NCBI GenBank assembly: GCA_903931735.1
Contig: CAIZDL010000075.1
Coordinates: 1-50,979 of the forward strand
Source: an uncultured Rhodospirillales bacterium
Lineage (GTDB): Bacteria > Pseudomonadota > Alphaproteobacteria > Azospirillales > Azospirillaceae
Direction of reading: 5' to 3'
DNA: 50,979 bases
In this document: positions 3,180 to 17,827 of the stretch, piece after piece
Layout of the letters: every line of letters starts with the position of its first letter
Position numbering within the stretch: the first letter of the stretch is position 1
The notes under the pieces: generated by a model
Databases searched by the model: none
The model's input: only the letters and a program-made list of their open reading frames with translations
Told to the model about the DNA's origin: nothing
Made by a program: the position numbers and the translations under genes

Positions 3180-3677
3180 TCAGGGCTCGATGCGGTAGAA
3201 CAGTGTGGTTCCGATTTCGGCGGTGGGTAACTGGTTGGCGGCCCAGGGGGGATACTTGGTGGCGGCGTGGTAGTGGGTTGCGCCATTGGTCGGGTCCGGC
3301 AGGACCCCGGCGGTGGCCCGCCGGGCAATGCGCAGGCAGGTGTCGAACACCGGATCTCCGGGTTTGAGGGCCAAGAGCACGGCCCTTCCCGCCCGGTCTT
3401 GGTCCCAGCACGGGAATTGGCCCGGATGCCGGCACACCGATACGATACCATCTCCCCACCAGCAGCCTTGGCGGGCCGTGCTTATGGCGACCCGGTTGAG
3501 CACCACCGATGCCACGGCTTCAATGCTCCGTACCGGTTGGTCCCTCGCTTCGCCCCAGAGGGTGCGGGCGAGGGTGTCGATGGCGCTGTTCCACGGGCCG
3601 CCAAGAGCGGGGCGGTTTTGATTGACCGGGGCCGGCGGCGGGGCGTCGGCAAGCGGGCGCAAGGCGGGGGCGGCCAT
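3180..3677 (-). CDS. SleB-type cell wall hydrolase (phage endolysin)
   Basis: The 165-residue protein belongs to the cell wall hydrolase family related to SleB/CwlJ, used by spores and by many alphaproteobacterial phages as endolysin. Visible motifs are LARTLWGEAR (about 36-45, with Glu43 as likely catalytic acid), EAVASVVLNRV (53-63), FPCW (88-91), DPTNGATHYHA and the terminal IGTTLFYRIEP. It would cleave peptidoglycan glycan strands at the end of phage growth. The N-terminal 30 residues are Pro/Ala-rich with no signal peptide, so release would need a holin or pore. Its ATG overlaps the stop of the upstream gene (TAATG), and it is the last gene of the phage block. Confidence 0.85.
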   Translation of the reverse strand: MAAPALRPLADAPPPAPVNQNRPALGGPWNSAIDTLARTLWGEARDQPVRSIEAVASVVLNRVAISTARQGCWWGDGIVSVCRHPGQFPCWDQDRAGRAVLLALKPGDPVFDTCLRIARRATAGVLPDPTNGATHYHAATKYPPWAANQLPTAEIGTTLFYRIEP

Positions 3678-3985
3678 TATAACCGGTCCTCGGCGAGCAT
3701 TCCCCAGCTAAATTCCAGCTTGGTTTCGATGCGCAGCAAATGGTCGGTGAGGCGCTGTTCCACCGTTTTCAGCGTGTCGATCCCGGCGTACGAGCGCGCG
3801 ACCTCCACTTTGTAGTTTGCCAGCGAGTCGCGGACTTGGCTCTGGGCGTTCTCGGCCCGTTGGCGGACAGTATCCAGCGCTTGTTCGGCCTCGTGGCGGT
3901 GCCGGTTGATCATCCAGAACAGTCCGCTGATAACCGGCAGTTCGACGGCGGTTATCCACCAGACGACATCGAGCGTTTCGTGCAT
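3677..3985 (-). CDS. Small membrane protein with coiled coil, lysis-module candidate
   Basis: The 102-residue product has one hydrophobic helix near the N-terminus (about 7-24, ITAVELPVISGLFWMI) and then a long charged helix with heptad character up to about residue 90. Similar small one-helix proteins ending in a LKTVEQRLTDHLLRIE-like segment sit beside endolysins in alphaproteobacterial phages. It could be a spanin-like or holin-like partner of the endolysin; the sequence does not decide between them. The start is the ATG preceded by AAGGAGA, 13 codons inside the longer open frame. The stop overlaps the endolysin start by one base, so the two are translationally coupled. Confidence 0.6.
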   Translation of the reverse strand: MHETLDVVWWITAVELPVISGLFWMINRHRHEAEQALDTVRQRAENAQSQVRDSLANYKVEVARSYAGIDTLKTVEQRLTDHLLRIETKLEFSWGMLAEDRL

Positions 3986-4025
3986 GGCATTGTCTCCTTT
4001 TGGGTTTGAGCAAAACTTGTGCAAT

Positions 4026-4060
4026 AAAAAAAGCCGCTTCCCGGGGTAGGGAAGCGGCTT
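4026..4060 (-). terminator. Intrinsic terminator after the toxin-antitoxin pair
   Basis: A perfect 12-bp stem (AAGCCGCTTCCC at 4031-4042 and its complement at 4049-4060, loop GGGGTA) is followed on the - strand by a run of seven T. It lies 27 bases beyond the antitoxin stop and separates the pair from the lysis genes, which therefore need either read-through or their own promoter. Confidence 0.85.
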
Positions 4061-4087
4061 AGCAGTACCGAGCGCCGACGTTGCGGG

Positions 4088-4654
4088 TCAGGCTACCCGT
4101 TCGATATATTCAGTATCCCAATGGCGCGCCTTCCGAGGTGTTTCGTAGCCCTTGAACTTGATCAGGACCAGCTCGAAGACTAACGGTGGCAGTTCGGAAC
4201 TGGCGCTACTACGGTGCACGAGCTTCATGTTGACGATCACGCCGTGCTCGTAGTCGATGGCGGGGGCGAGCGTTTTTAGTCGCTCGCAAACTGTTTGGCG
4301 CACCAGTTTTTCGGTTACTCCGCCTGTGCCCTGCGCGTCATTTTCCCAACGCGACACGGTTTCGGGCCGGTTATCGGTCAATTCGGCGAACTCCCGTCCG
4401 GTCATTCCCAGCGCTTTGCGCAAAAAGCGAAATTCATGACTGCACAGGGTAACCGGCATCAGGCAGCGGGCAATGGCAGCAGCTGCCACCAGCTCGTCCA
4501 TGTTTGGCACGGCGATTATGTCGTTATCGCAGTCCGTGCAAAAGCGCCGGATCGCAGCGTTCTTGAGCACCACCGGAATTCCGATATGGGCGTCCCGATA
4601 GGTCTCAATCACTTCCTGCTGCATGCGTCCGCCGCATTCAGAGCAGGTCATCAT
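4088..4654 (-). CDS. MqsA-like antitoxin: zinc ribbon plus HTH
   Basis: The 188-residue protein begins with a YgiT-type zinc ribbon (C4, C7, C39, C42), followed by an HTH of the XRE/MqsA type at about 75-128 (FRFLRKALGMTGREFAEL, then PETVSRWEND as recognition helix). This architecture is that of MqsA antitoxins, which bind a toxin through the zinc domain and repress their own promoter through the HTH. The last 60 residues form an extra domain not present in E. coli MqsA, so the protein is longer than the family norm (about 130). The start ATG overlaps the toxin stop (ATGA), the usual toxin-first order of mqsRA. Neutralisation of the upstream toxin is inferred. Confidence 0.8.
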   Translation of the reverse strand: MMTCSECGGRMQQEVIETYRDAHIGIPVVLKNAAIRRFCTDCDNDIIAVPNMDELVAAAAIARCLMPVTLCSHEFRFLRKALGMTGREFAELTDNRPETVSRWENDAQGTGGVTEKLVRQTVCERLKTLAPAIDYEHGVIVNMKLVHRSSASSELPPLVFELVLIKFKGYETPRKARHWDTEYIERVA

Positions 4655-4968
4655 GGTGTTGCCCCTAACTTTTCAATCACGGTTACGACGGTTATCTCGA
4701 TATCGTCCTCATTGACGATGACAACCAGTTCGACATTTCTTCCATCAAGGTCTTTGCCGCGAACATTCCATCGGATGCTTCCCAGATGCGGTTCCACTCG
4801 AACCACGGGACAACGCCCTAGAATATGCTTAACATCAAGTTCGCTGATATGACGCTCGATCATCCGTGTCCTGGCGTGTTTGCCATAGAAGACATGGACG
4901 TTTGGGTTGCCCGCGACACGCCGCAGCCGCGCGGTTTCACCGCTAAAACTGGGCTGCTTCTGCGACAT
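4651..4968 (-). CDS. DUF4258-family toxin candidate
   Basis: The 105-residue product fits the DUF4258 family, small basic proteins that are commonly encoded just before MqsA-like antitoxins. Visible family features are FYGKHARTRMIERHIS (His/Arg-rich helix), DVKHILGRCPVV, a WNVRGKDLDGRNVELVVIV beta hairpin and a final ITVVTVIE strand. The fold is likely RelE/MqsR-like, so mRNA cleavage is a reasonable but unproven activity. The frame is open further upstream, but ATG 4968 gives the family length and lies about 35 bases downstream of a candidate promoter. It forms an operon with the zinc-ribbon HTH gene, overlapping it by four bases. Confidence 0.75.
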   Translation of the reverse strand: MSQKQPSFSGETARLRRVAGNPNVHVFYGKHARTRMIERHISELDVKHILGRCPVVRVEPHLGSIRWNVRGKDLDGRNVELVVIVNEDDIEITVVTVIEKLGATP

Positions 4969-5002
4969 GAGCGAACGGGACCTCGATATTCGAATGGTAC
5001 GA

Positions 5003-5032
5003 AGTGTGGGCCAGAATTGATCGATAGTCAAT
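5003..5032 (-). promoter_or_regulatory. Candidate promoter and operator of the toxin-antitoxin pair
   Basis: On the - strand TTGACT (5031-5026) is separated by 17 bases from CACACT (5008-5003), a good -35 with a weak -10. The -35 overlaps a dyad ATTGA-N7-TCAAT (5016-5032), a plausible site for autorepression by the HTH antitoxin. Pattern only. Confidence 0.4.
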
Positions 5033-5053
5033 CTATTCCCACTGGCCTATGCG

Positions 5054-5068
5054 CCGTGGTTTCCACGG
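5054..5068 (-). terminator. Hairpin after the large terminase gene
   Basis: A perfect CCGTGG-TTT-CCACGG dyad 21 bases past the terminase stop. There is no T-run, so it may be a weak terminator or a 3'-end stabiliser separating the structural genes from the toxin-antitoxin promoter. Confidence 0.35.
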
Positions 5069-5089
5069 TTGATCATGGTGCTTTGCCGC

Positions 5090-6559
5090 TTACCCACCCC
5101 GCCAGCCGGCATCCCGGTTGGGCAGACGGCCGGGGGCGCCGAGCCGGACCGGTTCGGCTTTGAGGCAACCGGCAACGGCGTCGAGGCCATCGTCGCGGCC
5201 TTTGAACCGTCCGTCGGGCCGCCAGTCGCGCATTTCGCGAACAAACGGGGTGTCCCAGACTGCGCGATGGGCGTTCAGCGCGCCTGCGGCCAGCACCACG
5301 TCGAACGCTTCGACAATCCGCTGGTGTTTGGCTTGCCGGGACGTGACCTCCACCACCGCCGCCGCAACTCCGGCTTTGCGCAATTCCTGGCGCAGAAGGC
5401 CGGGCAGGAAACGGCCGAGGCCGTTGATTTCCAGGCTGACCGAAGGCAAATAGAGGTCTTTCAGGAACGCTGCCACCAAGCGGCATTGGCGGCTCGCTTG
5501 GTCTTCCTCGACCAATCCCCCTTCATCGGGTGCGTTGAGATAACGGATGCGGTGGAGATAATAGCTGCCCTGTTCGCAGGTGAAGATCGCTGCAATGACG
5601 CTGGCGTCGCCGCCCGAGCTTTTGGCGCCATAGGCCGGGTCCCACCAGCAGCTTGCCGAAACCAACCGCTTGCCGTTGAGGCTGAGCACCGGTTTTCCGC
5701 CCGCCTCGCGGTATTCAAGCTCGCTGTCGTAGGGGCGCAGACGGTCGGGGTCGAGCCGGCCTTCGGCGATGTTCACCGGTTCCAGCATCATTTGGCTCTG
5801 GAACTTATTGGCGCCGGTGTGCCGCCGAATGCGGCCGATGGCGTCTTCGGGAAACCGATCGGGCCAGCGGCTTTTGCCGCATGGGGTCAGCACCGGCAGC
5901 ACCAGTCGTTGAAAACCATCGAGAAACTGGGCGCTCTCGCCAAGTTCCCGTCGCGCCTGATCGGCATAAAGCGTGTAGTAGCTGTGGGGCGTGCCGACAT
6001 AGAGCTGAAGGCCGCCTGGCACCAGGATATAGTCGATTTCGGCGAGGCGGGCGCGCAGATCGGCCCGCTTTGGCGCGCTGTCCGAGGTGTTGGGCACCTC
6101 CACATCGTCGCAGACCACAATATCGGCCCGGCTGCCGGTGAGGTTTGCTTCAATCCCCCGGGCCAGCATCGAGGGGTCCCGAAGCTCGGCGCTTCGGGCC
6201 ACGGTGAATTGTTCGGCCGACCACTGATCGGCCCGGCGCGGCTTGAGCTTCATGGTCCGCGAGATTGGATGGCGTTCAAGCAGGCGTTTGACGTTGCGCA
6301 CCATTTTGCGCGCCAAGGCCAAGTCGGCCGCCAGCACCAATAAGCGCAAATTGGGGTTGCGGCACAGCAGCCAAGCTGCGAACAGGCCAACCAGGGTGGA
6401 TTTTCCGCTGCCCCGGAACGCCATCAGCAAAAGTTGACGGTCGCCGGTTTCCCAGCGGTCGGAGAGCCAGCGGGCCATGGTGTCGTGAAGCAGGGGCATC
6501 GACTGCCCCTGCTCGCGCGCCCACAGCCAAACAAAATCGGGGAACGGCACCAGTTTCAT
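5090..6559 (-). CDS. terL: Phage terminase large subunit
   Basis: The 489-residue protein is a two-domain packaging motor. The ATPase half shows Walker A FRGSGKST (48-55), Walker B IVVCDD (147-152) and a coupling motif YVGTPHSYYT (about 187-196). The nuclease half shows the acidic residues of an RNase H fold: WWDPAYG (D307), GGDAS (D318), LEINGLG (E378) and RDDGLDAVAG (D457/D460). Length and motif order fit T7 gp19-like terminases of podoviruses. All catalytic acids are present, so the protein may be active. The frame is open upstream to 7000, but ATG 6559 overlaps the stop of the preceding gene (ATGA) and begins at the first conserved region. It would cut and translocate DNA into a procapsid, yet no portal gene is present in the block. 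Confidence 0.92.
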   Translation of the reverse strand: MKLVPFPDFVWLWAREQGQSMPLLHDTMARWLSDRWETGDRQLLLMAFRGSGKSTLVGLFAAWLLCRNPNLRLLVLAADLALARKMVRNVKRLLERHPISRTMKLKPRRADQWSAEQFTVARSAELRDPSMLARGIEANLTGSRADIVVCDDVEVPNTSDSAPKRADLRARLAEIDYILVPGGLQLYVGTPHSYYTLYADQARRELGESAQFLDGFQRLVLPVLTPCGKSRWPDRFPEDAIGRIRRHTGANKFQSQMMLEPVNIAEGRLDPDRLRPYDSELEYREAGGKPVLSLNGKRLVSASCWWDPAYGAKSSGGDASVIAAIFTCEQGSYYLHRIRYLNAPDEGGLVEEDQASRQCRLVAAFLKDLYLPSVSLEINGLGRFLPGLLRQELRKAGVAAAVVEVTSRQAKHQRIVEAFDVVLAAGALNAHRAVWDTPFVREMRDWRPDGRFKGRDDGLDAVAGCLKAEPVRLGAPGRLPNRDAGWRGG

Positions 6560-6924
6560 GAGAGATCTCCCGCGTCTGCGCGAAGGGCGGTCAAAGCCCG
6601 GCTGGCGTCGAGCAGCATGGTGTCGATGCCCGGGGGGTCGTTCTTTTCGCCCGATCCTTCTTCCGCCTCTCCTGCATCGCTGCCGAGGGTTGCCGGCAGG
6701 GCGGCCCACCGGGCGAGGCGGAGTAGGGATTCGAGGTGGACCAAAGCGGTCCGTCCCGCCGTGTGATGGTCTTTGAACTCTTTGGCGTCGAGGGGGACGG
6801 TCACGGTCACAAAGTCGCGATAAGAGCCCACTGCGCGGTCCATGGCCTCGGGCACCAACCCCGCGATGGCGGCGCGCACAGTCTCCAGGCTTTGGCTCGC
6901 GAGGTGTTCGGTCTGATCGGTCAT
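6556..6924 (-). CDS. Candidate terminase small subunit
   Basis: The 122-residue acidic protein matches no family that I recognise. It is placed directly upstream of and overlapping the large terminase by four bases, which is the usual position of a small terminase. The predicted structure is mainly helical (helices around 5-30, 45-75 and 105-118), with an acidic/glycine-rich loop near 82-98. A ribosome site GGAG lies about 11 bases before ATG 6924. DNA-recognition function is inferred from position and size only; it could also be a head-completion or assembly protein. Confidence 0.55.
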   Translation of the reverse strand: MTDQTEHLASQSLETVRAAIAGLVPEAMDRAVGSYRDFVTVTVPLDAKEFKDHHTAGRTALVHLESLLRLARWAALPATLGSDAGEAEEGSGEKNDPPGIDTMLLDASRALTALRADAGDLS

Positions 6925-6962
6925 GGCTTGGGGGCTCCTTAAACACTATTTTTCCGGGCGGG

Positions 6963-8996
6963 TCAGGGGTTGCGGGCAAGGATTTGCCAGGCGGCGCCAT
7001 TGGACATTGCGGTCAGACTGTGGCACATCGCGGTCAGCGCGATGGCCTCGCCATCGGGACCGGTGGTTCGGGTTGCTGTCACGGTCACTGCGTTGGCCGA
7101 GCTGTCGGCTTTTTTAACGCTCACCGTTTGGCCGACCGCGTTGGTGCTGCTGGGGTCTGGCAACCGGAATTCCACCGCCCCGCCATAGGCGCTGACCATG
7201 TAAAGGTCTTTGCTGAGATCGGGGATAATCAGGCCCGGTGTTTCCGAATATTGGCTGTTGCCAGGGGCGCGGTTGGCCGCCACCACCCACCAGTTTGCGC
7301 CATTGGACACAACAGTTACAAAGTCGTAACGATTTCCTAGCACGAGGGAGCGGCCATCCGGCCCTGCTCCGCCGCTGGCTTCGGTGACGGTGAGGGCGTT
7401 GGCGGTGGCGTCGGTTTTTTTGATCGTCACCGAAAAGCCGTTGGCCGCCGCCGCTGCCGGCAAACGCACCTCGACCGCACCATTCCAAGCGCTGACCAGA
7501 TAAACCGAGTGGGTGAGGTCCACCACACAGGTCGCCGGCCCGGTCGCTTCAAAAAATGTGGTGTCGAACCGGAGCGCCTGAACCGTGAGTTCGCTGATCC
7601 GCGTTTGAAGCAGGCGGTTCTTGGTTGGGTAGCCGGCGTTGAGCGCCGCGTATTGGCCGCCGCACAGGTCTAAGATCGCGGGACCCGAGGCGGCGGAAAA
7701 CAGGTTGATGATCGAGGTTTCCACCGAGCCGGCGTCGAGCTGGACATTGGGCAGGCCGCCGAGGGACTCGCAGTAGAGATTGACCAGCAGGGTTTTGTTG
7801 GTGTTGGCGCCAAGGCGAAAACAGGCTTCGGCACTCGGGCTGAGATTGGCCTCGCAATCGATAAACGAGTTATTGTAGCGCCCGGCCTCCACGAAAAAGC
7901 CGCAGCCGCTGGTGGAGGCACCGAGCGAATAGACACGCACCGAATGGAACTTGTTGGCGTTGGGTGTATCGCCGGCGCCGCTAACGGTGAGCCAGACACC
8001 GTGGATGCCCGGCTTTGCCACCAGCACGCGGACGGTCGTGTTCCAGTAGCACGGCCGATCGGTGCGGCTGCCGCCGTCCAGCACCAGCCCGTAGGTCGGT
8101 TGCCACAGCGTTATGTCAGAAATGCTGTTTTGGATACAGGGGCCGGTCAAACCACACAGCGATATGCCAGCTCTGCCGTTTTCAAGCCGGAGATCGCGCA
8201 GAGTGGCATAGCCATCGGGCACCTGGATCAGGTCAAAGCTGTTGCTGGTGCCATGAATGATCGTGGATTGCCCGGCGCCGGCCAAGGTTTTGCCAAAGCC
8301 AAACGTGAGCGTGCCGGAAATGCGGTAGGTGCCGGGCGGCAGGTAAACCGAGGCGTGCCCGGTAAGCGCGGCCTGGATTGCCACAGTATCGTCGCTCACC
8401 CCATCGCCGGTGGCGCCGAAATCCTGGGCCGATACCGTGTCGCCGAGCTTGTCGGCAATTGGCCGGGCGGCGGCGCCTTCCCCTTGGGGCAGGTAGGTTG
8501 AAAGCGCCTGGGCATTGACCGGAGCGACCACGGTCGGCTCGCCCGCGCCGTCGAAGCTCAGCAGTTTACCGGCCCGCACCGCCCGTCCTGGCAATTCGGA
8601 TGAGGCGGGTAAATCGGTGTTTCCATAATGGAGCATCGCTTGCTGATCGCCCGCCACCTGTTGCAAGCAGGCGGTGATCATGTCGAGTTCGGTGTTGAGC
8701 GCGAGCGCCGAAAGAGGCCCGCTCTCGGAAAAATCGGTGACCCGTTCCACCGGAATTTGGCGGTCGAGCGTGATAACGGTGCCGGCAGCGGGTGCTGTGG
8801 CGAAGGTCACGGTGCCGCCGGTGGTCACCCCGCTCCCTGCCACGAGATAGCCGGTTTGGCGTAAGGCCGCCCCGAGGTAAACGACGAGATCCTCTGAGGC
8901 AAATATTGGAAACGGGAACGGAAACGCGGTTTGGGTGCCATCGGCGACATATTGCACGCGGGGTGTCCCGCGTGGCATTAGGAGCGAGGTGGGCAT
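6963..8996 (-). CDS. Tail fibre/tailspike with T7-type N-terminus and pectate-lyase fold
   Basis: The 677-residue protein has three regions. Residues 10-130 match the T7 tail-fibre attachment domain (VQYVADGTQTAFPFPF, then a DRQIPVERVTDF motif) that docks fibres to the tail nozzle. Residues about 185-480 begin with VSAQDFGATGDGVSDDT, the signature of the pectate lyase superfamily beta-helix used by phage tailspikes to bind or cut surface polysaccharide. Residues 486-677 are two copies of a domain of about 90 residues. The ATG follows a GAGGGAG ribosome site. The product would recognise the host surface. A depolymerase activity is possible, but I see no certain catalytic triad. Confidence 0.85.
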   Translation of the reverse strand: MPTSLLMPRGTPRVQYVADGTQTAFPFPFPIFASEDLVVYLGAALRQTGYLVAGSGVTTGGTVTFATAPAAGTVITLDRQIPVERVTDFSESGPLSALALNTELDMITACLQQVAGDQQAMLHYGNTDLPASSELPGRAVRAGKLLSFDGAGEPTVVAPVNAQALSTYLPQGEGAAARPIADKLGDTVSAQDFGATGDGVSDDTVAIQAALTGHASVYLPPGTYRISGTLTFGFGKTLAGAGQSTIIHGTSNSFDLIQVPDGYATLRDLRLENGRAGISLCGLTGPCIQNSISDITLWQPTYGLVLDGGSRTDRPCYWNTTVRVLVAKPGIHGVWLTVSGAGDTPNANKFHSVRVYSLGASTSGCGFFVEAGRYNNSFIDCEANLSPSAEACFRLGANTNKTLLVNLYCESLGGLPNVQLDAGSVETSIINLFSAASGPAILDLCGGQYAALNAGYPTKNRLLQTRISELTVQALRFDTTFFEATGPATCVVDLTHSVYLVSAWNGAVEVRLPAAAAANGFSVTIKKTDATANALTVTEASGGAGPDGRSLVLGNRYDFVTVVSNGANWWVVAANRAPGNSQYSETPGLIIPDLSKDLYMVSAYGGAVEFRLPDPSSTNAVGQTVSVKKADSSANAVTVTATRTTGPDGEAIALTAMCHSLTAMSNGAAWQILARNP
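6966..7541 (-). repeat. Tandem C-terminal domain repeat in the tail fibre
   Basis: Residues about 486-575 and 586-677 of the fibre align over their whole length. Shared elements are YLVSAWNGAVEVRLP versus YMVSAYGGAVEFRLP, then VTIKKTDATANALTVT versus VSVKKADSSANAVTVT, GPDG, and SNGANWWVV versus SNGAAWQIL. The sequence divergence suggests an old duplication kept for function, perhaps as a trimerising or glycan-binding tip. Confidence 0.85.
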
Positions 8997-9016
8997 GGGA
9001 TTGGTGACTCCCTCGG

Positions 9017-9592
9017 TTACGAAAAGCTATTGAGCCATTGCAGGCGTTGACGTTCGGCGAGCTGGGTCTGTTCCAGCAGATTGCGTTGGTTCAAGACGTC
9101 GGCTTGCTGGGTCAGGGCTTGCTGGCGCAATTGGGTCGCGGCGGCGCTGGCTTGGCGGTTTTGGTCCGATGCCCGGATCTGGCCGAGCAAAATCGCCTCT
9201 CCCGAGCCATCGGTTTGGTCGACCCCTTGGCCGGCTAGGCTGGTTTTCGTTTTCGCCACCGCTTGCCGTAGGGCGTCGCGCCGGGCTTGTTCGTCTTGGT
9301 TTGCCGAGAGTTGAGCCTGATCCATCTGGGTCTGGATCTGCGCATCCTGGTTGGTGGTATCGAGCGCCTGGGTCTCTTGAAGCTGTTGCATCTGAAGCTC
9401 TTGGGAGGCTTGCAAATTGTCTTGGGCTTGGGCGCGGGCGGTGGCGGCCCTTTGCGCCGCCACCTCTTGACGCTGGGCGGCAAGCTCCTGGCTGGATTGC
9501 CGATTTAGGTAGCCGCTGGCGGCGTTGAACACGGGAATGGCTTCGGAGACAGCGGGCAGCACCGAAGAAACCACCGAGGATATGGCCGACAT
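9017..9592 (-). CDS. Internal virion-like protein, Gln/Ala-rich coiled coil
   Basis: The 191-residue protein has a short hydrophobic N-terminus (SSVVSSVLPAVSEAIPVF) and then about 150 residues of Gln/Ala-rich helix with very few prolines. In T7-like phages an internal virion or injection protein (gp14-like) with this make-up follows the tail nozzle gene, and gene order here is the same. It could be ejected with DNA to form a channel across the envelope. ATG 9592 overlaps the nozzle stop by one base (TAATG); the longer frame to 9667 would intrude into the nozzle gene. Family assignment rests on composition and position. Confidence 0.6.
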   Translation of the reverse strand: MSAISSVVSSVLPAVSEAIPVFNAASGYLNRQSSQELAAQRQEVAAQRAATARAQAQDNLQASQELQMQQLQETQALDTTNQDAQIQTQMDQAQLSANQDEQARRDALRQAVAKTKTSLAGQGVDQTDGSGEAILLGQIRASDQNRQASAAATQLRQQALTQQADVLNQRNLLEQTQLAERQRLQWLNSFS

Positions 9593-11493
9593 TATTCGCT
9601 CACTTTCAGTTCGGTCGCGACCGACAACAGGGTGAAAGGCAGGGGCACATCCTGGTCGATGCGCCATAGGGGTTTGGTGAGGTCGCGCAGCCAGCCCAGC
9701 GCCTTAAGGCTGCGGTCTCCGGTGACCAGCGCGGGCGCCGTGCCCAGCAGCGGCGCCGGCCCAAAACGGTGCATCGGCAGATCGAACGGCCCCCTGCCGA
9801 GGTCGATCCGCACGGCGGCGGTGTCCTTCAGCCTGAAGCTCGCCTCGACCAACCGCACCGGCGCGCCGACCACCAAGCCGAGCCCCAGCAGATTGGGCGG
9901 CAAAGGCTCAACCACATGGCTGTAAGGGAGCCCGGCCGAAACCGTGGTGGCGGCCTCGGCGAGCCGGATCGCGCCGGCGGCGACGGTGGCGTTGGGGCGA
10001 ACGATGCCATCGGCCACCACCGCCACCGAGCGGCCTTCAAGATGGCCCAGCCCGGCCCAGCTTTGGGTTGGCGTGGTGGCGGTGCCGGTCAGCGACGCAT
10101 CGAGATGCACGCCGTCTTGAAAACATTCCACCGTCCAGTGGCTACCACGCTGGACCATCAGGTAAACGGCATCGCCCACCACCGCCACCGAGCGCGAGGG
10201 TCCATCGGTTTCGATATGGGTCCAAGCGCTGACCGCCTCGGCGCGGTAAACGGTCAGCACCGCAACCGAACCATCCATCATCACCACGAACAGCAGCCTC
10301 CGACCGGCGTCATAGTCCTGGTCGCGCGGAGTGCGGATCAGGTGGCGGGCAAAGAGAGTGAGGTCGTTGGCTTGATAGGCCTGTTCGGTGATCGTAAACA
10401 AAAACTCCCGAATCTCGCGACCGTTTCGGGATGCGAACAAAGTTGCGCCGTCCACATTGCGCGGATGTACCGTGCGGTCGATGGGCGAGCCCACCCGCGT
10501 TTGCCGATAAAGCTGAATATTGAGCGGGGTCAACGGAACGCCATCGACCATCCATTCCGCGCCCGAGGTGAACACCTGGAGATGCCGGCCCGAGAACACC
10601 GCGCGGATGGCGTTCACTTGGTCCGACATGATGCCGAACTCGATCGCCTCGTCGTCGAGACCGGTGCCGAGGTCGAAGTTCCACAGGTCGGCCGATTGGG
10701 ACAGCCAAAGCCGATTGGGCAAATCCCGGGAGCCGCCAATCACCAGCCGGTGTTGATGAAAACAGGCCGACACCGGCCAGCCCCGGACGGCGGAGAAGGC
10801 CGGCTCATCCCAATCCACGGTCGCGCTGGTGCTCGATAGCGGTTCCTGGCAGGTCGCGGTGATCTGGGTGGCCGAGGTGACCGCACCGATCAAAACCTGT
10901 TTGTCGCCGACCCGCAGCCGTAGCCCGGCATGGTCCTGAACAAACACCGCAGCCGAAGCTGTGAGCGTGATTTGTCCGGCAGTGCCGCTGGGCGTTAGGG
11001 TCACGGTGGTGTCGCCAAAGCGGTAATAAGGCTGGCGGACCAGGGCGCCTTCGCTAAGATAGGCCCAGGTGGTGAGCGTCCACGAGGTACTGCCGGTGCG
11101 GGTCAGTTTGCGCGGCGCCACATCGGGATGGCAGATCAGCAAGGTATCGGCGCTTTGGGTCCAGTTGATTTGGTCGAGCTGGGCCGTCGTCCAGGGCGCC
11201 GCGATGGAGGCTGTCACCACGTCGTTGTCGTAAACGTCGATCCAGCCGTTGGTGAAGACCAGCAGGTAGGTCTGTTCGGTGTTGAACTCGAACGCCACCA
11301 GCCGGCCCGGGCCGCGCACGGTATCGACATAGGCCAGCCCGGCGCGCCGTGTGACGCCGCCGGTGGGGTCGATAAAGACGTTGGTGAGGGATCGGGCGCC
11401 GTTGTCGTAGGCCTTGAGGTCGCCCCGTCCGAGCAGATCGGGCGAAATCTCTCCCCCGGTGAAGTTGGTTTTATCCTGGCGGGTGACGGGCAT
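9592..11493 (-). CDS. Podovirus tail nozzle (gp12-like tail tubular protein B)
   Basis: The 633-residue protein begins TRQDKTNFTGGEISPDLLGRG, a signature start of podoviral tail tubular/nozzle proteins, followed by VFIDPTGGVTRRAGLAYV. The middle is rich in beta strands with repeated WTxxxxD-type segments (beta-propeller-like in T7 gp12). A RLWLSQSADLWNFDLG segment and the IEFGIMSDQVNAIRAVF segment near residues 270-300 are also typical. It forms the distal tube to which fibres attach and through which DNA leaves. It starts at an ATG overlapping the adaptor stop by one base and ends overlapping the next gene by one base. Confidence 0.85.
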   Translation of the reverse strand: MPVTRQDKTNFTGGEISPDLLGRGDLKAYDNGARSLTNVFIDPTGGVTRRAGLAYVDTVRGPGRLVAFEFNTEQTYLLVFTNGWIDVYDNDVVTASIAAPWTTAQLDQINWTQSADTLLICHPDVAPRKLTRTGSTSWTLTTWAYLSEGALVRQPYYRFGDTTVTLTPSGTAGQITLTASAAVFVQDHAGLRLRVGDKQVLIGAVTSATQITATCQEPLSSTSATVDWDEPAFSAVRGWPVSACFHQHRLVIGGSRDLPNRLWLSQSADLWNFDLGTGLDDEAIEFGIMSDQVNAIRAVFSGRHLQVFTSGAEWMVDGVPLTPLNIQLYRQTRVGSPIDRTVHPRNVDGATLFASRNGREIREFLFTITEQAYQANDLTLFARHLIRTPRDQDYDAGRRLLFVVMMDGSVAVLTVYRAEAVSAWTHIETDGPSRSVAVVGDAVYLMVQRGSHWTVECFQDGVHLDASLTGTATTPTQSWAGLGHLEGRSVAVVADGIVRPNATVAAGAIRLAEAATTVSAGLPYSHVVEPLPPNLLGLGLVVGAPVRLVEASFRLKDTAAVRIDLGRGPFDLPMHRFGPAPLLGTAPALVTGDRSLKALGWLRDLTKPLWRIDQDVPLPFTLLSVATELKVSE

Positions 11494-12062
11494 CAGCTTC
11501 GAGCCTCGATCAGGGAGAAGGTTTCAAAGCAGCTCCGGGTATCCTGCTGGCCATCGACCAGCCGGGCGCGCCGGAACTCTTGCTCGGCCAATTGGTAAAG
11601 GGTGGTCGCTCGGGCGGCGCTTTCGGTGAGCGGCAGGCAGAACTCGGCAGCCAGCCGGGCGACCAGCGCGGAGGCGAAAATGGGCGGAAAGCCGCTTTCA
11701 TCGACCCGCGAGAGGTAGGTCAGCACCACGGCGGCGCTGCCGGCCTCAAGCGATTGGCCCGAGATCCGGTAACACAGCCCCCGCCCGGCCCCCGGCCCGC
11801 CCGCCGAAAGCGCGGCGAGGTAATCGGAGGGCAATGCGAACGCATAGTCATAGTCGGCGATCGGTGGCTGGGCGAGCTGGGCCAGCGTTGCCTGCCGGGT
11901 CGAAAAGCGCCACGGATGAGCCGAAAGCAAAGCATCCCGCGTCGGCTCATAAAGGACGCCAGCCGTTTCCGCCTCGGCGGTCCCGTCATTGAACCCGTCG
12001 ATAGGCGCGGCCCCGAGCTTCACCAGCGCACGGTTGCAGAGCCCAATGGCATTGAGAGTCAT
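11493..12062 (-). CDS. Tail adaptor (gp11-like tail tubular protein A)
   Basis: The 189-residue protein opens MTLNAIGLCNRALVKLGA and continues ALLSAHPWRFSTRQATLAQL and YAFALPSDYL, the hallmark of gp11-like gatekeeper proteins that join the portal to the nozzle in T7-like phages. The C-terminal half carries a helical LVARLAAEFCLPLTESAARA segment. The open frame extends to 12221, but the conserved start is ATG 12062, just after the bidirectional terminator at 12106-12132. Transcription therefore must begin between 12063 and 12105 or read through. Its natural partner, the portal, is not in the window. Confidence 0.85.
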   Translation of the reverse strand: MTLNAIGLCNRALVKLGAAPIDGFNDGTAEAETAGVLYEPTRDALLSAHPWRFSTRQATLAQLAQPPIADYDYAFALPSDYLAALSAGGPGAGRGLCYRISGQSLEAGSAAVVLTYLSRVDESGFPPIFASALVARLAAEFCLPLTESAARATTLYQLAEQEFRRARLVDGQQDTRSCFETFSLIEARS

Positions 12063-12105
12063 GGGGTGGGGTCCTTGGGTTGGGGTGAGAAAAAGCACAA
12101 ACGAA

Positions 12106-12132
12106 AAAAGCCGCCCGGGAAGGGCGGCTTTT
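12106..12132. terminator. Bidirectional intrinsic terminator after the DUF2335 cassette
   Basis: An 11-bp perfect stem (AAAAGCCGCCC 12106-12116, GGGCGGCTTTT 12122-12132, loop GGGAA) with A/T runs on both sides. It lies 34 bases after the DUF2335 gene stop and 44 bases before the adaptor gene start. The T-run on the - strand is six bases. Confidence 0.85.
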
Positions 12133-12165
12133 GGCAACAAACACCGAATGATGAAAGAGGCGGGC

Positions 12166-12582
12166 TTAGTCTTTCTTGCGCGCCCGGATACCGCTGTCGA
12201 TGAGCGCTTTGACCACGGCAAACATCGGCATGCTCAAAAAGACTGTTGCGACCCAGGGCTCCTTTAAAGCGACGCAGCCCAGAGCACCGAGCATCGCGAT
12301 GATCGAAACCGAGGCTCCGAGCCAAGGGCCGCGTTTGCTATCGTTGATTTTTGCTTTTAGCGACAACTCCGCCATCGCCATTACGCGGTCCGCGCCGTTG
12401 GGAATAATCTCACCGTATCGAGCAACCAAGTCAGGGTGCGGAAGCGGCCCCTGCCACATCCGAAGGCGGGCGTGCTCAACGATCTCCCCGTTGGTTTTAT
12501 GTGCAACAGCGGTCTCCAGACTCGCCATCTTGTTGTTTTGAGGGTCGGCCAAGGATATGTCGTTGGTCGTGCGATCAGCCAC
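12166..12582 (-). CDS. DUF2335 membrane protein, phage cargo
   Basis: The 138-residue product carries the DUF2335 core, GPLPHPDLVARYGEIIPNG then ADRVMAMAE (45-72), followed by two membrane helices at about 86-106 and 109-128 and a basic tail. DUF2335 proteins are small, two-helix membrane proteins of unknown function, often found on mobile DNA. The start GTG 12582 is supported by GGGGGCGA just upstream; it overlaps the preceding gene by eight bases. The gene sits between capsid and tail genes but has no known virion role. With its partner it forms a separately controlled unit. Superinfection exclusion or membrane-damaging defence are possible roles; both are guesses. Confidence 0.7.
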   Translation of the reverse strand: MADRTTNDISLADPQNNKMASLETAVAHKTNGEIVEHARLRMWQGPLPHPDLVARYGEIIPNGADRVMAMAELSLKAKINDSKRGPWLGASVSIIAMLGALGCVALKEPWVATVFLSMPMFAVVKALIDSGIRARKKD

Positions 12583-12823
12583 GATCGCCCCCGACTTGCT
12601 TATCGAGATCGCCCATCGCTCCGTTAATACTCTGACCAACCTGTGACCAGGCGCCCCTGATCATTGCGTTGGCTCCGTCATAAGGCGAGTGCCGCGAGGG
12701 TGGTTCGTATACCATGGTCGGAGCCGCCAAACCTTGCCAGAACCCTTCCCAGAAGGTTGTTAAGGCGTGAGGCGGTCGTTGCGCCAGTCGGTTTCTGAAA
12801 CGGCGAACAATCTGGCCCATCAT
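12575..12823 (-). CDS. Small protein of unknown function paired with DUF2335
   Basis: This 82-residue protein begins MMGQIVRRFRNRL, a basic amphipathic helix, followed by a WEGFWQGLAAP hydrophobic stretch and an acidic C-terminus. I recognise no family. The start ATG 12823 has GGGAG five bases upstream; earlier in-frame ATGs (12862, 12877) lie inside the promoter region and lack a ribosome site. It is the first gene after the operator-bearing promoter and overlaps the DUF2335 gene by eight bases, so the two are expressed together. The amphipathic N-terminus suggests membrane association or interaction with the DUF2335 helices. Confidence 0.55.
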   Translation of the reverse strand: MMGQIVRRFRNRLAQRPPHALTTFWEGFWQGLAAPTMVYEPPSRHSPYDGANAMIRGAWSQVGQSINGAMGDLDKQVGGDRG

Positions 12824-12857
12824 CTTATCTCCCAGCGTAAGAACGGATTCGGGCGAA

Positions 12858-12887
12858 CTCATACAAGTTAGTGACATTCTGTCACAA
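12858..12887 (-). promoter_or_regulatory. Promoter with palindromic operator for the DUF2335 cassette
   Basis: On the - strand TTGTGA (12887-12882), 18 bases, TATGAG (12863-12858). A perfect dyad GTGACA-TTC-TGTCAC (12871-12885) overlaps the -35 and spacer, the classic place for a dimeric repressor. The transcript would start about 30 bases before the first gene. No matching repressor gene is in the block. Confidence 0.5.
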
Positions 12888-12971
12888 GCAGTGATGAACT
12901 TACAGTCTCCGTTTGGTGGATAGCCAATGAATTTTTTGGGGCAATAATTGCGCCGAGTTGGCGGAAAGGAG

Positions 12972-13008
12972 CGCAGTCGGCCGTGTGGGCGATTTCCGGC
13001 CGACTGCG
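12972..13008 (-). terminator. Long stem-loop after the capsid genes
   Basis: Perfect 11-bp arms CGCAGTCGGCC (12972-12982) and GGCCGACTGCG (12998-13008) with a 15-base loop, 13 bases past the stop of the 89-residue gene. There is no T-run; it may protect the capsid mRNA 3' end or cause partial termination, isolating the DUF2335 cassette. Confidence 0.5.
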
Positions 13009-13021
13009 GTGTTCCCTCTCC

Positions 13022-13291
13022 CTAATCCGTGTTCGTGCTGTTCATCTGGGTGAGGTTGGCCACGTCCACCACCGAGGCGGTGTTGCTGGCGACCACGAAG
13101 ACCCCGGTGGCGATCGAGGCGCCGGTGTCGGTGTTGGCGAGGATCATGTCGCCCACCCGCACCATGTCGGAGGCTGCGTTGAAGTAGCCGGAGGTATCGA
13201 CGGTGGTTGCGGTGTCGGGTGTGGTGTAGTGCCAGAGGGTGAAGCCGTTGGAATAGGCGAGCACGCTCAGATTTTTGGACAAATAAGCCAT
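13022..13291 (-). CDS. Small capsid-associated phage protein
   Basis: The 89-residue product (MAYLSKNLSVLAYSNGFTLWHY, then GYFNAASDMVRVGDMILANT) resembles short proteins that directly follow the capsid gene in T7-like and related alphaproteobacterial podoviruses. It has predicted beta-rich structure with no membrane segment, which would suit a capsid decoration or head-fibre protein. It lies 25 bases downstream of the major capsid gene and is likely co-transcribed. The virion role is inferred from position and recurrence with capsid genes. Confidence 0.6.
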   Translation of the reverse strand: MAYLSKNLSVLAYSNGFTLWHYTTPDTATTVDTSGYFNAASDMVRVGDMILANTDTGASIATGVFVVASNTASVVDVANLTQMNSTNTD

Positions 13292-13316
13292 GGTTTGGGC
13301 TCCGGGAGCGGTTGGA

Positions 13317-14135
13317 TTATGATTCGAGGCAACGCATGGTCACGACGCCGGTTGCGTCGATCAGGGCCGCGCCTTGGCTCATCATGTTGTTGACGAAGTG
13401 GGCGGCGCGGTCGCCGTGCCAGGTGATATCGGTCTGGACATCCGAGCCCGAGGCGTGGCCGACTGCGGTTTTGTGGAACCAATGGCAACTGCGAACATTG
13501 GCGGCGACGGTCAGGCCCGAGTGGGGCAGCCACAAAGTGCCGAGCCAGCGCTTGGCCTGAGTGCCCTGCCAGGGCAGATCGGCAGCACCGACATATTCCG
13601 AGTTGGCGAACTCGGGAATGCCCAACAGTTGGCTCCACTGCTTCCAGCCGACCACCGCATATCGCTGGCCGTCGTCGGGAACATCAATGGCGCCGAGGAT
13701 CTCGAAAGCCTGCAACACTTTGGCCTTGGTCAGACCATCGGTGCCGTCGAGGGCATAGTTGGTGTTGGTGTTGAGCGCCGCGATGATCAGGTCGTCGGTC
13801 TTGCGGCCAAGGGCATAAGCGCCGGCATTGGCGATTACTGTCCGCTCGTCGATATTGGTTTTCAGCTCGTCGAGCTGGTCAACCCAATCGCCGGCATAAT
13901 AGTCGGAAAGGGCGCATTCGATCGGCGTGTGGTCGATGTTCATCACCGGCACGGTGCCGTGGCGGGCCTTGGTGCTGGCGGTGCCTTTGCCAACCTTCTG
14001 GAACACCGTCGAGGCACCGACGACGTTGCCTTTGGAGCGGACGGTACTGCGCAGTTTTGAGCCCATGCGCTGATAGGCCTCGTGAACCTCACGTTCGAAC
14101 TGCTTGATGAAAGCTTGCGTCACCGAAATAGACAT
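13317..14135 (-). CDS. Major capsid protein (HK97-type fold, podovirus family)
   Basis: The 272-residue protein begins MSISVTQAFIKQFEREVHEAYQ and continues LRSTVRSKGNVVGAS and a Lys-rich loop, as in a family of short capsid proteins of podoviruses infecting alphaproteobacteria. Further landmarks are the HTPIECALSDYYAGDWVD segment near residue 70, DDLIIAALN (about 118-126), a VVGWKQWSQLL segment and a C-terminal HFVNNMMSQGAALID. At 272 residues it is shorter than the usual 330-350, but the family is known for this size. There is no protease or scaffold gene next to it, which a shell of this type normally needs. First gene of the block. Confidence 0.85.
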   Translation of the reverse strand: MSISVTQAFIKQFEREVHEAYQRMGSKLRSTVRSKGNVVGASTVFQKVGKGTASTKARHGTVPVMNIDHTPIECALSDYYAGDWVDQLDELKTNIDERTVIANAGAYALGRKTDDLIIAALNTNTNYALDGTDGLTKAKVLQAFEILGAIDVPDDGQRYAVVGWKQWSQLLGIPEFANSEYVGAADLPWQGTQAKRWLGTLWLPHSGLTVAANVRSCHWFHKTAVGHASGSDVQTDITWHGDRAAHFVNNMMSQGAALIDATGVVTMRCLES

Positions 14136-14425: not shown

Positions 14426-15061
14426 TCACCGCAACGGTTCAAACCGGTCGGTGTTTTCCTGATATTGAAACAGGGTGGCGCTGGCGATATCGAAATACAG
14501 CCCGCGCAGGCGCAGCCGCCCAATCTTGACCCCATGGGCGATGCAGGGGAATGAGAGCAGGTTGAGCAACGACACCTTGATCACCTCCCGCTCGCAAATG
14601 CAGATTTGGTGCTCAAGAGATTGCTCGGCGGCGATTTCGATGGTGCGCAGGCGGGCGGGTTCGGCAATCCGCATCCAACGATTGATGAAGGGGTTGACCT
14701 CGGCGATATCGGGATCGTTGGTCATCAGCGCCCGGACGCCGCCGCAACTGGCATGGCCCATGACCACGATATATTCGACCCGGAGCGCGTTGACCGCAAA
14801 TTCCAGCGCGGCGCTGGTGCCGTGATACAGCCCATCGGGCTCGCAGGGCGGAACGAGATTGGCGACGTTGCGCAAAATAAAAAGTTCGCCCGGCGCGGCG
14901 TTGGCGAGAATCGCCGGGTCCACTCTCGAGTCGCAGCAGGCGATAACCATACATTTCGGGGTTTGACCCACCGCGAGCCGGGCAAACAGCTCCGGGTCGG
15001 CGTGGGCGGCTTTGCTTTGGTAGTCGAGGAAGCCAGTGACAAATTTTTCGTAAGCGGACAT
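14426..15061 (-). CDS. Beta-class carbonic anhydrase
   Basis: The 211-residue protein interconverts CO2 and bicarbonate. Zinc and catalytic residues are all visible: ACCDSRVDP (C42, D44, R46) and GHASCGG (H103, C106). The region [15 protein letters not shown] and the dimer helix [11 protein letters not shown] are typical of plant/bacterial-type beta enzymes. The open frame extends to 15322, but ATG 15061 gives the normal family start and avoids overlap with clpB. The gene diverges from clpB, sharing a 183-base upstream region. It lies immediately beside the phage leader on the same strand. Bicarbonate supply for carboxylating enzymes is a likely role. Confidence 0.92.
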
Positions 15062-15162
15062 GGGGCGAACTCGGCCGTGGTGCGGCGCAATATTATACCA
15101 AGCCTTCCGCAAAGGGTAGCGCAACCGGTCGGCCGGCGTCGGTCCGCGTGCCCCGTCTTGCT

Positions 15163-15190
15163 CTTGCATCGGCAGCCGCGCTCGCCATAT
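15163..15190 (+). promoter_or_regulatory. Candidate heat-shock (sigma-32 type) promoter of clpB
   Basis: CTTG (15163-15166), 18 bases, CCATAT (15185-15190), matching the CTTG...CCATAT-like RpoH pattern of alphaproteobacteria. It lies 54 bases before the clpB start, a sensible position for a heat-shock disaggregase gene. Confidence 0.5.
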
Positions 15191-15244
15191 GTGACGGGCG
15201 GAGTGGTGCGGCTTGGCCGACCCGGCCATATTTGGGAGCGCGGA

Positions 15245-17827
15245 ATGGATTTTGAGAAATACACCGAGCGGGCGCGCGGCTTTGTGCAGGCGGCGCAGAG
15301 CTTGGCGCAGCGGCGTGGTCATCAGCAGTTGCTACCGCTCCATCTTCTCAAAATCCTGCTCGACGATAAGGAGGGGTTGGCCGCCGGCCTGATCAAGGCG
15401 GCGGAGGGCGACCACACGGCGGCGCTGTCGGGTGCCGAGGCCGAGCTGGAGCGGTTGCCCAAGGTCGAGGGCGCGGGGGCTGGGCAGGTCTACCTTGGTG
15501 CCGATTTGGCCCGGCTGTTTGAGAGCGCCGAGACGTTGGCCCAGAAGGCCGGCGACAGCTTTGTCACGGCCGAGCGGCTGTTGCTGGCGATGGCTCTGTC
15601 CCAGGGCTCGCCGGTGCAACGGGTACTTGGCGGTGCGGGGGTGACGCCCCAGGCGCTTAACCGGGCGATCAACGAGATGCGCAAAGGGCGGACCGCCGAT
15701 AGCGCGTCGGCCGAACAGTCATACGATGCGCTGAAAAAATACACCCGCGACCTGACCCAGGCCGCCCAAGAGGGCAAGCTCGACCCGGTCATCGGGCGGG
15801 ACGACGAAATTCGGCGCTGTATTCAGGTGTTGGCGCGGCGGACCAAAAACAACCCGGTGTTGATTGGCGAGCCGGGGGTGGGCAAAACCGCGATCGTCGA
15901 AGGCTTGGCCCAACGCATCATTAACGGCGATGTGCCGGAGGGGTTGAAGAAGCGCAAGCTTTTGTCGTTGGACCTTGGCGCCCTGGTTGCCGGCTCTAAG
16001 TTTCGCGGCGAGTTCGAGGAACGGCTGAAGGCGGTGCTCCAGGAAATTCAGGCGGCGGCGGGTGAGATCATCGTTTTTATCGACGAATTGCACACCCTGG
16101 TTGGCGTTGGCAAGGCCGAAGGGGCGATGGATGCGTCCAATATGCTGAAGCCAGCATTGGCTCGGGGCGAGCTTCATTGCTTAGGCGCAACGACTTTGGA
16201 CGAGTACCGGAAGCACGTCGAGAAGGATGCAGCGCTGGCCCGCCGCTTCCAGCCGGTGTTTGTGCCCGAGCCCAATGTCGCCGACACGATCTCGATTCTG
16301 CGCGGCCTCAAGGAAAAGTATGAGCTTCATCACGGGGTGCGGATCACCGATAATGCCATCGTCGCGGCGGCCACGCTTTCCAATCGCTATATCACCGACC
16401 GCTTTTTGCCCGATAAGGCGATCGATTTGATTGACGAGGCGGCGTCGCGTTTGAGGATGGAGGTCGATAGCAAGCCCGAAGAAATTGATGAGCTGGACCG
16501 CCGGATCATCCAACTGAAAATCGAGCGGGAAGCGCTCAAAAAGGAGAGTGACGCCGGCTCGAGGGATCGGCTGGTGCGGCTGGAGGGGGAACTTACCGAG
16601 CTTGAACGCAAATCGGCCGAGTTGACCGAGCGCTGGCAGTCCGAAAAGGATCAACTTTCGGTGGCCCAGCGGACCAAGGAACAGTTGGAACAGGCCCGCT
16701 CGGCGCTGGACCAGGCCCAGCGAATGGGCGATTGGGCGCGGGCGGGCGAACTGACCTACGGTGTCATTCCGGACCTGGAACGAAACTTGAAAACGGCGGA
16801 GCACGCGGCCGAAAATCGGATGCTTAACGAAGAGGTGCGCGATAGCGACATTGCCGGAGTGGTGAGCCGCTGGACCGGGATTCCCGTCGATAAGATGCTG
16901 GCGGGGGAGCGCGATAAGCTGTTGGCGATGGAGGCGCGGCTGGGGCGGCGGGTGATCGGCCAGGAGGAGGCGATATCGTCGGTGGCCAATGCCGTGCGCC
17001 GTGCCCGTGCCGGTTTGCAAGACCCAAACCGCCCGATCGGCTCGTTTATTTTCCTTGGTCCTACCGGAGTGGGGAAAACCGAGTTGACCAAGGCGCTGGC
17101 CGAATTTTTGTTCGACGACGAGACCGCAATGGTCCGGCTCGATATGTCGGAGTATATGGAAAAACATTCCGTAGCCAGAATGATCGGTGCGCCGCCGGGG
17201 TATGTCGGCTATGATGAGGGCGGAGCCCTGACCGAGGCGGTGCGCCGCCGGCCCTATCAGGTGGTGCTGTTCGATGAGATCGAAAAGGCTCATCCCGATG
17301 TTTTCAACGTTCTGCTTCAGGTGTTGGATGATGGCCGGTTGACCGATGGGCAGGGCCGTACGGTGGATTTTCGCAATACCCTGATCGTCATGACCTCAAA
17401 TATCGGCTCCGATATCCTGGCAGCTCAGGCGGAGGGGGAGGAGAGCGACGCTGTGCGTGCGGCGGTGATGGAGGTGGTGCGGTCGGCGTTCCGGCCCGAG
17501 TTCCTCAATCGACTCGACGAAATTTTGTTGTTCCACCGGCTGAGCCGCACCCACATGACTGCGATTGTCGCCTTGCAATTGGCGCGGCTGCGCAAAATGC
17601 TGGGCGAGCGGGATATTGGGCTGGAGCTGGATGGACCGGCCCTGACGTGGCTGGGCGACGCCGGCTATGATCCGGTTTATGGGGCCCGGCCCCTGAAGCG
17701 GGTTATTCAACGCGAACTGCAAAACCTTCTGGCCACCCGGATTTTGGCGGGCGAGATCGCTGGCGGGCAAACCGTTCGGGTTGGCACCGCCGGGGGCGGG
17801 CTGGTGCTGGGCGTGGCGGGCGCTTGA
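15245..17827 (+). CDS. clpB: ATP-dependent chaperone ClpB
   Basis: The 860-residue protein is a Hsp100 disaggregase that works with DnaK to extract proteins from aggregates. Domains in order: N-terminal double-Clp domain (1-150), AAA+ domain 1 with Walker A GEPGVGKT near 207 and Walker B VFIDELH, the long coiled-coil middle domain (about 400-525) that distinguishes ClpB from ClpA, and AAA+ domain 2 with Walker A GPTGVGKT near 605 and the GYVGYDEGG pore loop. The C-terminus ends [11 protein letters not shown]. Length is normal. ATG 15245 has GGGAGCGGA just upstream; the in-frame extension back to 14606 is antisense to the carbonic anhydrase gene and is rejected. No fault is seen. Confidence 0.97.

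Follow-up and report, generated by a model that had tools for sequence, protein, structure and literature searches.

Two small overlapping genes lie between the capsid and tail genes of a phage-derived region in the 50,979-nt stretch of DNA analysed here (the window), and the question they raise is whether they constitute a genetic unit of their own and, if so, what such a unit might do. Their surroundings are phage structural genes, comprising the capsid (13317-14135), tail tubular proteins A and B, a tail fibre and a terminase. On the minus strand of the window, the open reading frames, Pfam and PHROG agree on the arrangement put forward in an earlier sequence-only reading, in which a gene encoding an 82-residue protein (hereafter the partner) is followed, with a short overlap, by a DUF2335 gene (Table 1).

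Table 1. Positions in the window of the two cassette genes, the associated signals and the genes bordering the insertion site.
Feature	Position	Strand	Details
Partner gene	12575..12823	-	82 aa, ATG at 12823; conserved immediately 5' of DUF2335
DUF2335 gene (PF10097 / phrog_3996)	12166..12582	-	GTG at 12582; 138 aa
8-nt overlap GTGGCTGA	12575..12582	-	DUF2335 start within the partner 3' end; 5+3k class typical of the family
Intrinsic terminator	12106..12132	-	11-bp stem, T-rich tail; -22 kcal/mol, z = -4.0
Hairpin	12972..13008	-	12-bp perfect stem; -32 kcal/mol, z = -5.1; without T-run
GTGACA-N3-TGTCAC palindrome	12871..12885	.	over a weak putative -35; chance level
Flanking phage gene phrog_18004	13022..13291	-	conserved left border of the insertion site
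Tail tubular protein A-like (phrog_394)	11493..12062	-	conserved right border of the insertion site

The analysis of the noncoding signals confirmed the intrinsic terminator downstream of the pair and the hairpin upstream of it, between the capsid-side gene and the cassette; the latter is likely the end or an attenuator of the upstream transcript. The start codon of the partner is preceded by GGGAGATAAG, a Shine-Dalgarno-like sequence with GGGAG shortly upstream, and the cassette stretch (12063-13021) presents a GC content of 0.565, versus 0.663 for the tail gene and 0.608 for the capsid stretch. A promoter belonging to the cassette is plausible solely by position: the terminator is strong and the candidate -35/-10 pair (GTGACA-16-TATGAG) weak in consensus, with 9 of 12 matches and a -10 element that fails the rule of the scan, and the mobile block described below for E. 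coli takes in 86 bp upstream. The perfect palindrome previously interpreted as an operator is present, with TTC as its spacer, but as an operator it is not distinguishable from chance: 6+6 inverted repeats with spacers of 0-12 turn up in 25% of 107-nt stretches drawn at random from the window. The exact palindrome is found at just one further place in the whole genome and hence marks no regulon, and its role as a regulatory operator was dropped as unproven.

The membrane gene of the window is a member of the DUF2335 family (PF10097; PHROG 3996), scoring 29.3 bits against a curated Pfam gathering cut-off of 25 and matching PHROG 3996, a family of 'moron' membrane proteins, with E = 8e-18. The Pfam match spans just 25 of the 50 profile positions because the window copy is devoid of part of the cytoplasmic helix. 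The core motif of the family, GP[LI]PxP..Y..I.P...[DE]R[IV] followed by two transmembrane (TM) helices, is present in the window copy as WQGPLPHPDLVARYGEIIPNGADRV, and the hydropathy of the two predicted helices (2.18 and 1.88) supports their assignment. The AlphaFold model of DUF2335 (mean pLDDT 80.6, pTM 0.42) places a short helix at 49-58, a helix of 43 residues at 62-104, within which TM1 falls, and TM2 at 108-136, supporting a membrane protein with a predicted two-helix hairpin and a long helix running into TM1. For the partner, the model (mean pLDDT 77, pTM 0.38) places helices at residues 18-38 and 49-79, hydropathy detects zero TM helices, and the conserved motif reads ..FWEGFWQGLAAP..(Pro-rich)..W..VG..I..AM. 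These predictions support a two-helix, non-transmembrane partner, in agreement with the earlier description of a partner beside a two-helix membrane protein. Given the low pTM values, the models were used for helix layout only. The two proteins were modelled separately because a joint alignment misplaced partner rows onto the DUF2335 part, and the corresponding single-chain model, derived from an artificial frame-shift read, was dropped. Neither Foldseek searches against viral models nor PDB profile searches returned a match for the proteins of the pair. A fusion of the partner domain to pentapeptide repeats was also observed, at a contig end (L131:1-375, minus strand).

Co-occurrence of the two genes in other genomes had been set beforehand as the check on their association, and the partner was found to be conserved beside DUF2335. 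A first partner profile was built from 11 sequences outside the viral set, namely the window together with loci that genome and plasmid searches had turned up, some of them in prophages. Every reading frame of 59 viral loci, themselves collected by DUF2335 alone, was then scanned with it. The partner lies immediately 5' of DUF2335 in 54 of these loci, and two of the five loci lacking a match begin at a contig end. For the reverse search, a second profile, based on the viral partners and the window, was run through 398 whole genomes in which DUF2335 positions had been found independently with the Pfam model, and 18 of its 23 genome-wide matches (E <= 5e-4) were located 0-400 nt upstream of DUF2335 on the same strand. 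A DUF2335-like ORF was likewise identified just downstream of seven of nine further partner matches in a class sample. In named genomes, a degenerate DNA pattern of the DUF2335 motif, which favours canonical members, retrieved at least 80 loci. Among the matches listed, the second profile places a partner within reach (E<0.1) of 64 out of 80 DUF2335 ORFs, none of the 80 loci presents a partner match at E<0.01 away from DUF2335, and the apparent misses include incomplete loci and partner-like proteins below threshold. All of these genome sets are samples, and the counts depend on the profile thresholds used to detect the partner in short ORFs (E<0.1 to 1, in small search spaces). The match of the window partner to its own profile arises partly by construction, the window being a seed sequence; support independent of the seed is provided by the viral and named-genome counts above and by the partner of a second DUF2335 copy in the same genome (E = 6e-5).

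The organization of the pair is conserved as well. The start of DUF2335 overlaps the stop of the partner by 5+3k nt in the majority of viral loci and also in 47 of the 63 genome loci, with observed lengths of 8 (the window), 11, 17, 29, 32, 47, 53 and 56 nt. Partner and DUF2335 sequence distances are correlated (Mantel r = 0.51 for n=41 pairs, 0.36 after dereplication, with 0 of 10,000 permutations reaching it), a sign of co-inheritance rather than of contact, since linked genes that are inherited together also correlate. Both proteins are encoded by one 315-aa ORF in G114, and helix 1 of the partner is fused to DUF2335 in two Xenorhabdus genomes; these fusions and the constant overlap support, short of proof, a physical complex of partner and DUF2335. 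Each member also occurs singly, with the partner found without DUF2335 in L119 and L126, and DUF2335 without a detectable partner in L028 and L030. In L030 (1270-2010, minus strand), DUF2335 is fused to a TIR domain and no partner gene is present; a further search for this architecture as a recurrent one did not find it again, so that it was seen in a single genome.

According to their record titles, the listed loci come from, among others, Proteobacteria, Bacteroidales, Lachnospiraceae and other Bacillota, Streptomyces and other Actinomycetes, Chloroflexi, Planctomycetota, Elusimicrobia, Zixibacteriota and Patescibacteria, and the partner profile also matches Staphylococcus and Lacticaseibacillus phages, a Helicobacter prophage and a Leptospira plasmid. 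Within this broad range DUF2335 is sporadic, being detected in 26 of the 398 sampled genomes of the phylum (about 6%) and in 5 of 99 in another sample. On the evidence of sequence comparison, the cassette is a member of a widespread, undescribed two-gene module present in many bacterial phyla, phages and plasmids.

The variable insertion site of the cassette in relatives and its transfer as one block in E. coli support the phage-moron layout that had been claimed for it, that is, a moron-like, self-contained unit. The gap between capsid and tail varies among 82 related elements carrying the same capsid and tail genes, with a median of 456 nt versus 1254 nt in the window, and the 959 nt that separate the small gene on the capsid side from tail tubular protein A in the window are far shorter in most relatives. 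A relative of the same genus, with a capsid 91% identical, carries a CheY-like receiver gene at the insertion site. In E. coli, the pair was detected by DNA similarity in 69 of 5,426 genomes (3 of the 69 covering less than 80% of the query), and the only stretch common to two loci in different prophage settings is a 1.17-kb block with 90% identity, which starts 86 bp ahead of the partner and ends just beyond a third gene of 53 aa. The second DUF2335 copy of the window's genome, on another contig, lies between purL and bolA with a small overlapping gene upstream; purL and bolA are adjacent in three of four congeners, indicating that this copy is an insertion there.

Additional observations concern the element that hosts the cassette. 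The capsid/tail junction (12063-13021) behaves as an insertion hotspot, with CheY-like receiver, DUF4258+HTH and tail-collar-like cargo in L220, L162, L149 and L143. The 53-aa gene (PHROG 14503, moron; signal-peptide-like start) lies 3' of the pair in both E. coli and Rahnella (L136:7896-8057, L138:6898-7059 and L017:3455-3616). Positions 3180-14135 of the window (minus strand) hold a compact phage set encoding a lysin, an HTH protein, a terminase, a T7-type tail fibre, tail tubular proteins B and A, and the capsid; no portal, integrase or polymerase was recognised in this set. Among 59 relatives, 26 carry the window capsid, at 59-91% identity. It is also present in no fewer than 598 viral contigs, with several of the top matches about 18 kb in size, and the phage element may represent a podovirus-like element that has been reduced or domesticated. 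A carbonic anhydrase gene (14426-15322, minus strand) adjoins its capsid end, with nusA and IF-2 farther away, and marks the host side.

The predicted topology, the patchy distribution, the moron positions and the single TIR fusion lead us to propose phage exclusion at the inner membrane by DUF2335 and its partner as a best guess, offered tentatively and at somewhat below an even chance. The superinfection exclusion or membrane toxicity suggested in the sequence-only reading is thus possible. DUF2335 would form an inner-membrane hairpin, its long cytoplasmic helix passing straight into TM1, and the partner, probably made by coupled translation, would most likely bind it at the cytoplasmic face. 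Traveling as an accessory unit in phages, and found also alone between chromosomal genes, the pair might yield a membrane complex that guards the carrier cell against other phages by blocking genome entry (superinfection exclusion) or, through an alternative route, by perturbing the membrane when an infection is detected. The TIR fusion and the two-TM topology are pointers to immunity, and DUF2335 and its partner could more broadly represent an unrecognised two-protein membrane immunity system of phages, plasmids and chromosomes in many phyla, with the partner (a TIR domain in one case) as sensor or effector and DUF2335 as membrane module, a proposal that we regard as possible if rather doubtful. 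PADLOC contains no model for DUF2335 or the partner, and defence genes are not enriched among the viral or chromosomal neighbours of the pair. In the literature searched, we found neither an account of DUF2335 mechanism or function nor tests of any family member against phages. As the sequence-only reading had anticipated, Pfam, PDB, PADLOC and this literature yielded no described system of the same make-up and no match explaining the function of the pair. One published table (PMC6267618, Table 1) does list 'DUF2335 (phospholipase)' among T6SS effectors, which we take to be a probable misprint for DUF2235 and therefore gave no weight.

The neighbours of chromosomal copies are unrelated and mostly housekeeping genes. 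The placement of lone copies among them, which offers no functional hint, speaks against exclusion and, together with the positions typical of morons, would fit a general lysogenic-conversion or fitness cassette acting on the host's envelope or stress physiology instead of its phage sensitivity. Deletion of a DUF2335 gene in Dickeya zeae reduced potato maceration (PMC8809351), a phenotype that hints at a physiological, not an antiviral, role. The sporadic, patchy distribution argues against such a cassette, however; moreover, no metabolic gene or regulator recurs beside the pair and no enzyme-like conserved residues were seen, and we deem such a cassette unlikely, if still worth serious weight. 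The small overlapping layout, the mobility and the solitary islands of the pair would also be expected of a toxin-antitoxin-like system in which one protein, DUF2335 or else the partner, disturbs the membrane and is kept in check by the other, and a DUF4258+HTH pair, possibly a toxin-antitoxin system, occupies the same hotspot in a relative. This interpretation appears distinctly improbable, given that fusions hold both proteins in one chain and that neither a DNA-binding antitoxin nor an autoregulatory operator above chance was observed; the loci containing either gene alone also count, weakly, against it.

Neighbours of the pair in viral loci include integrases, repressors, anti-repressors and endolysins. 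Its adjacency to an endolysin or holin in several phages and its two-TM protein could denote an accessory of lysis or virion release, akin to a holin/antiholin pair. Nonetheless, a separate holin is annotated just upstream both in Streptococcus Javan433, where the pair follows the lysin, and in Staphylococcus IME-SA4, where it lies between lysin and integrase. Solitary copies on chromosomes and plasmids, with no phage genes around them, and a very long cytoplasmic helix that seems unlike that of a typical holin, further reduce this explanation to a slim chance. A chance neighbourhood of two unrelated small ORFs in a phage structural operon, favoured by nothing but the chance-level operator, is contradicted by all the pairing results and has practically no likelihood.

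Should phage exclusion, the preferred reading, hold true, the pair would represent a new pan-bacterial defence module; should it not be protective, the pair would still provide a handle on a widespread membrane family. Although found at the frequency reported above and in dozens of phages and plasmids, DUF2335 is named by just two papers in the literature searched, neither of them a study of how it works. Recognition of the pair defines a minimal genetic unit of about 0.7 kb, open to immediate cloning and testing, for which naturally fused and single-gene forms would serve as internal controls.

The records of the DUF2335 family describe one protein of unknown function, and the upstream partner is absent from every model found. 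With toxin-antitoxin modules the pair shares a small, overlapping and mobile two-gene layout, but it is devoid of an antitoxin DNA-binding domain and both of its members occur singly too. CBASS 2TM effectors likewise present a two-TM hairpin with a cytoplasmic part, and one weak match to such an effector was recorded (E = 0.004), which likely reflects hydrophobic helices and may amount to shared hydrophobicity alone; unlike in CBASS, neither a nucleotide-sensing domain nor a cyclase partner was seen here. The superinfection-exclusion morons P22 SieA and HK97 gp15 resemble the pair in being small inner-membrane proteins, encoded in moron-like units and expressed from the prophage, with no sequence relation seen. 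P22 SieA is an inner-membrane protein of 162-164 aa (PMC10883804). SieA needs no second protein, and three TM helices are predicted for it, whereas DUF2335 combines two predicted TM helices with a conserved second protein.
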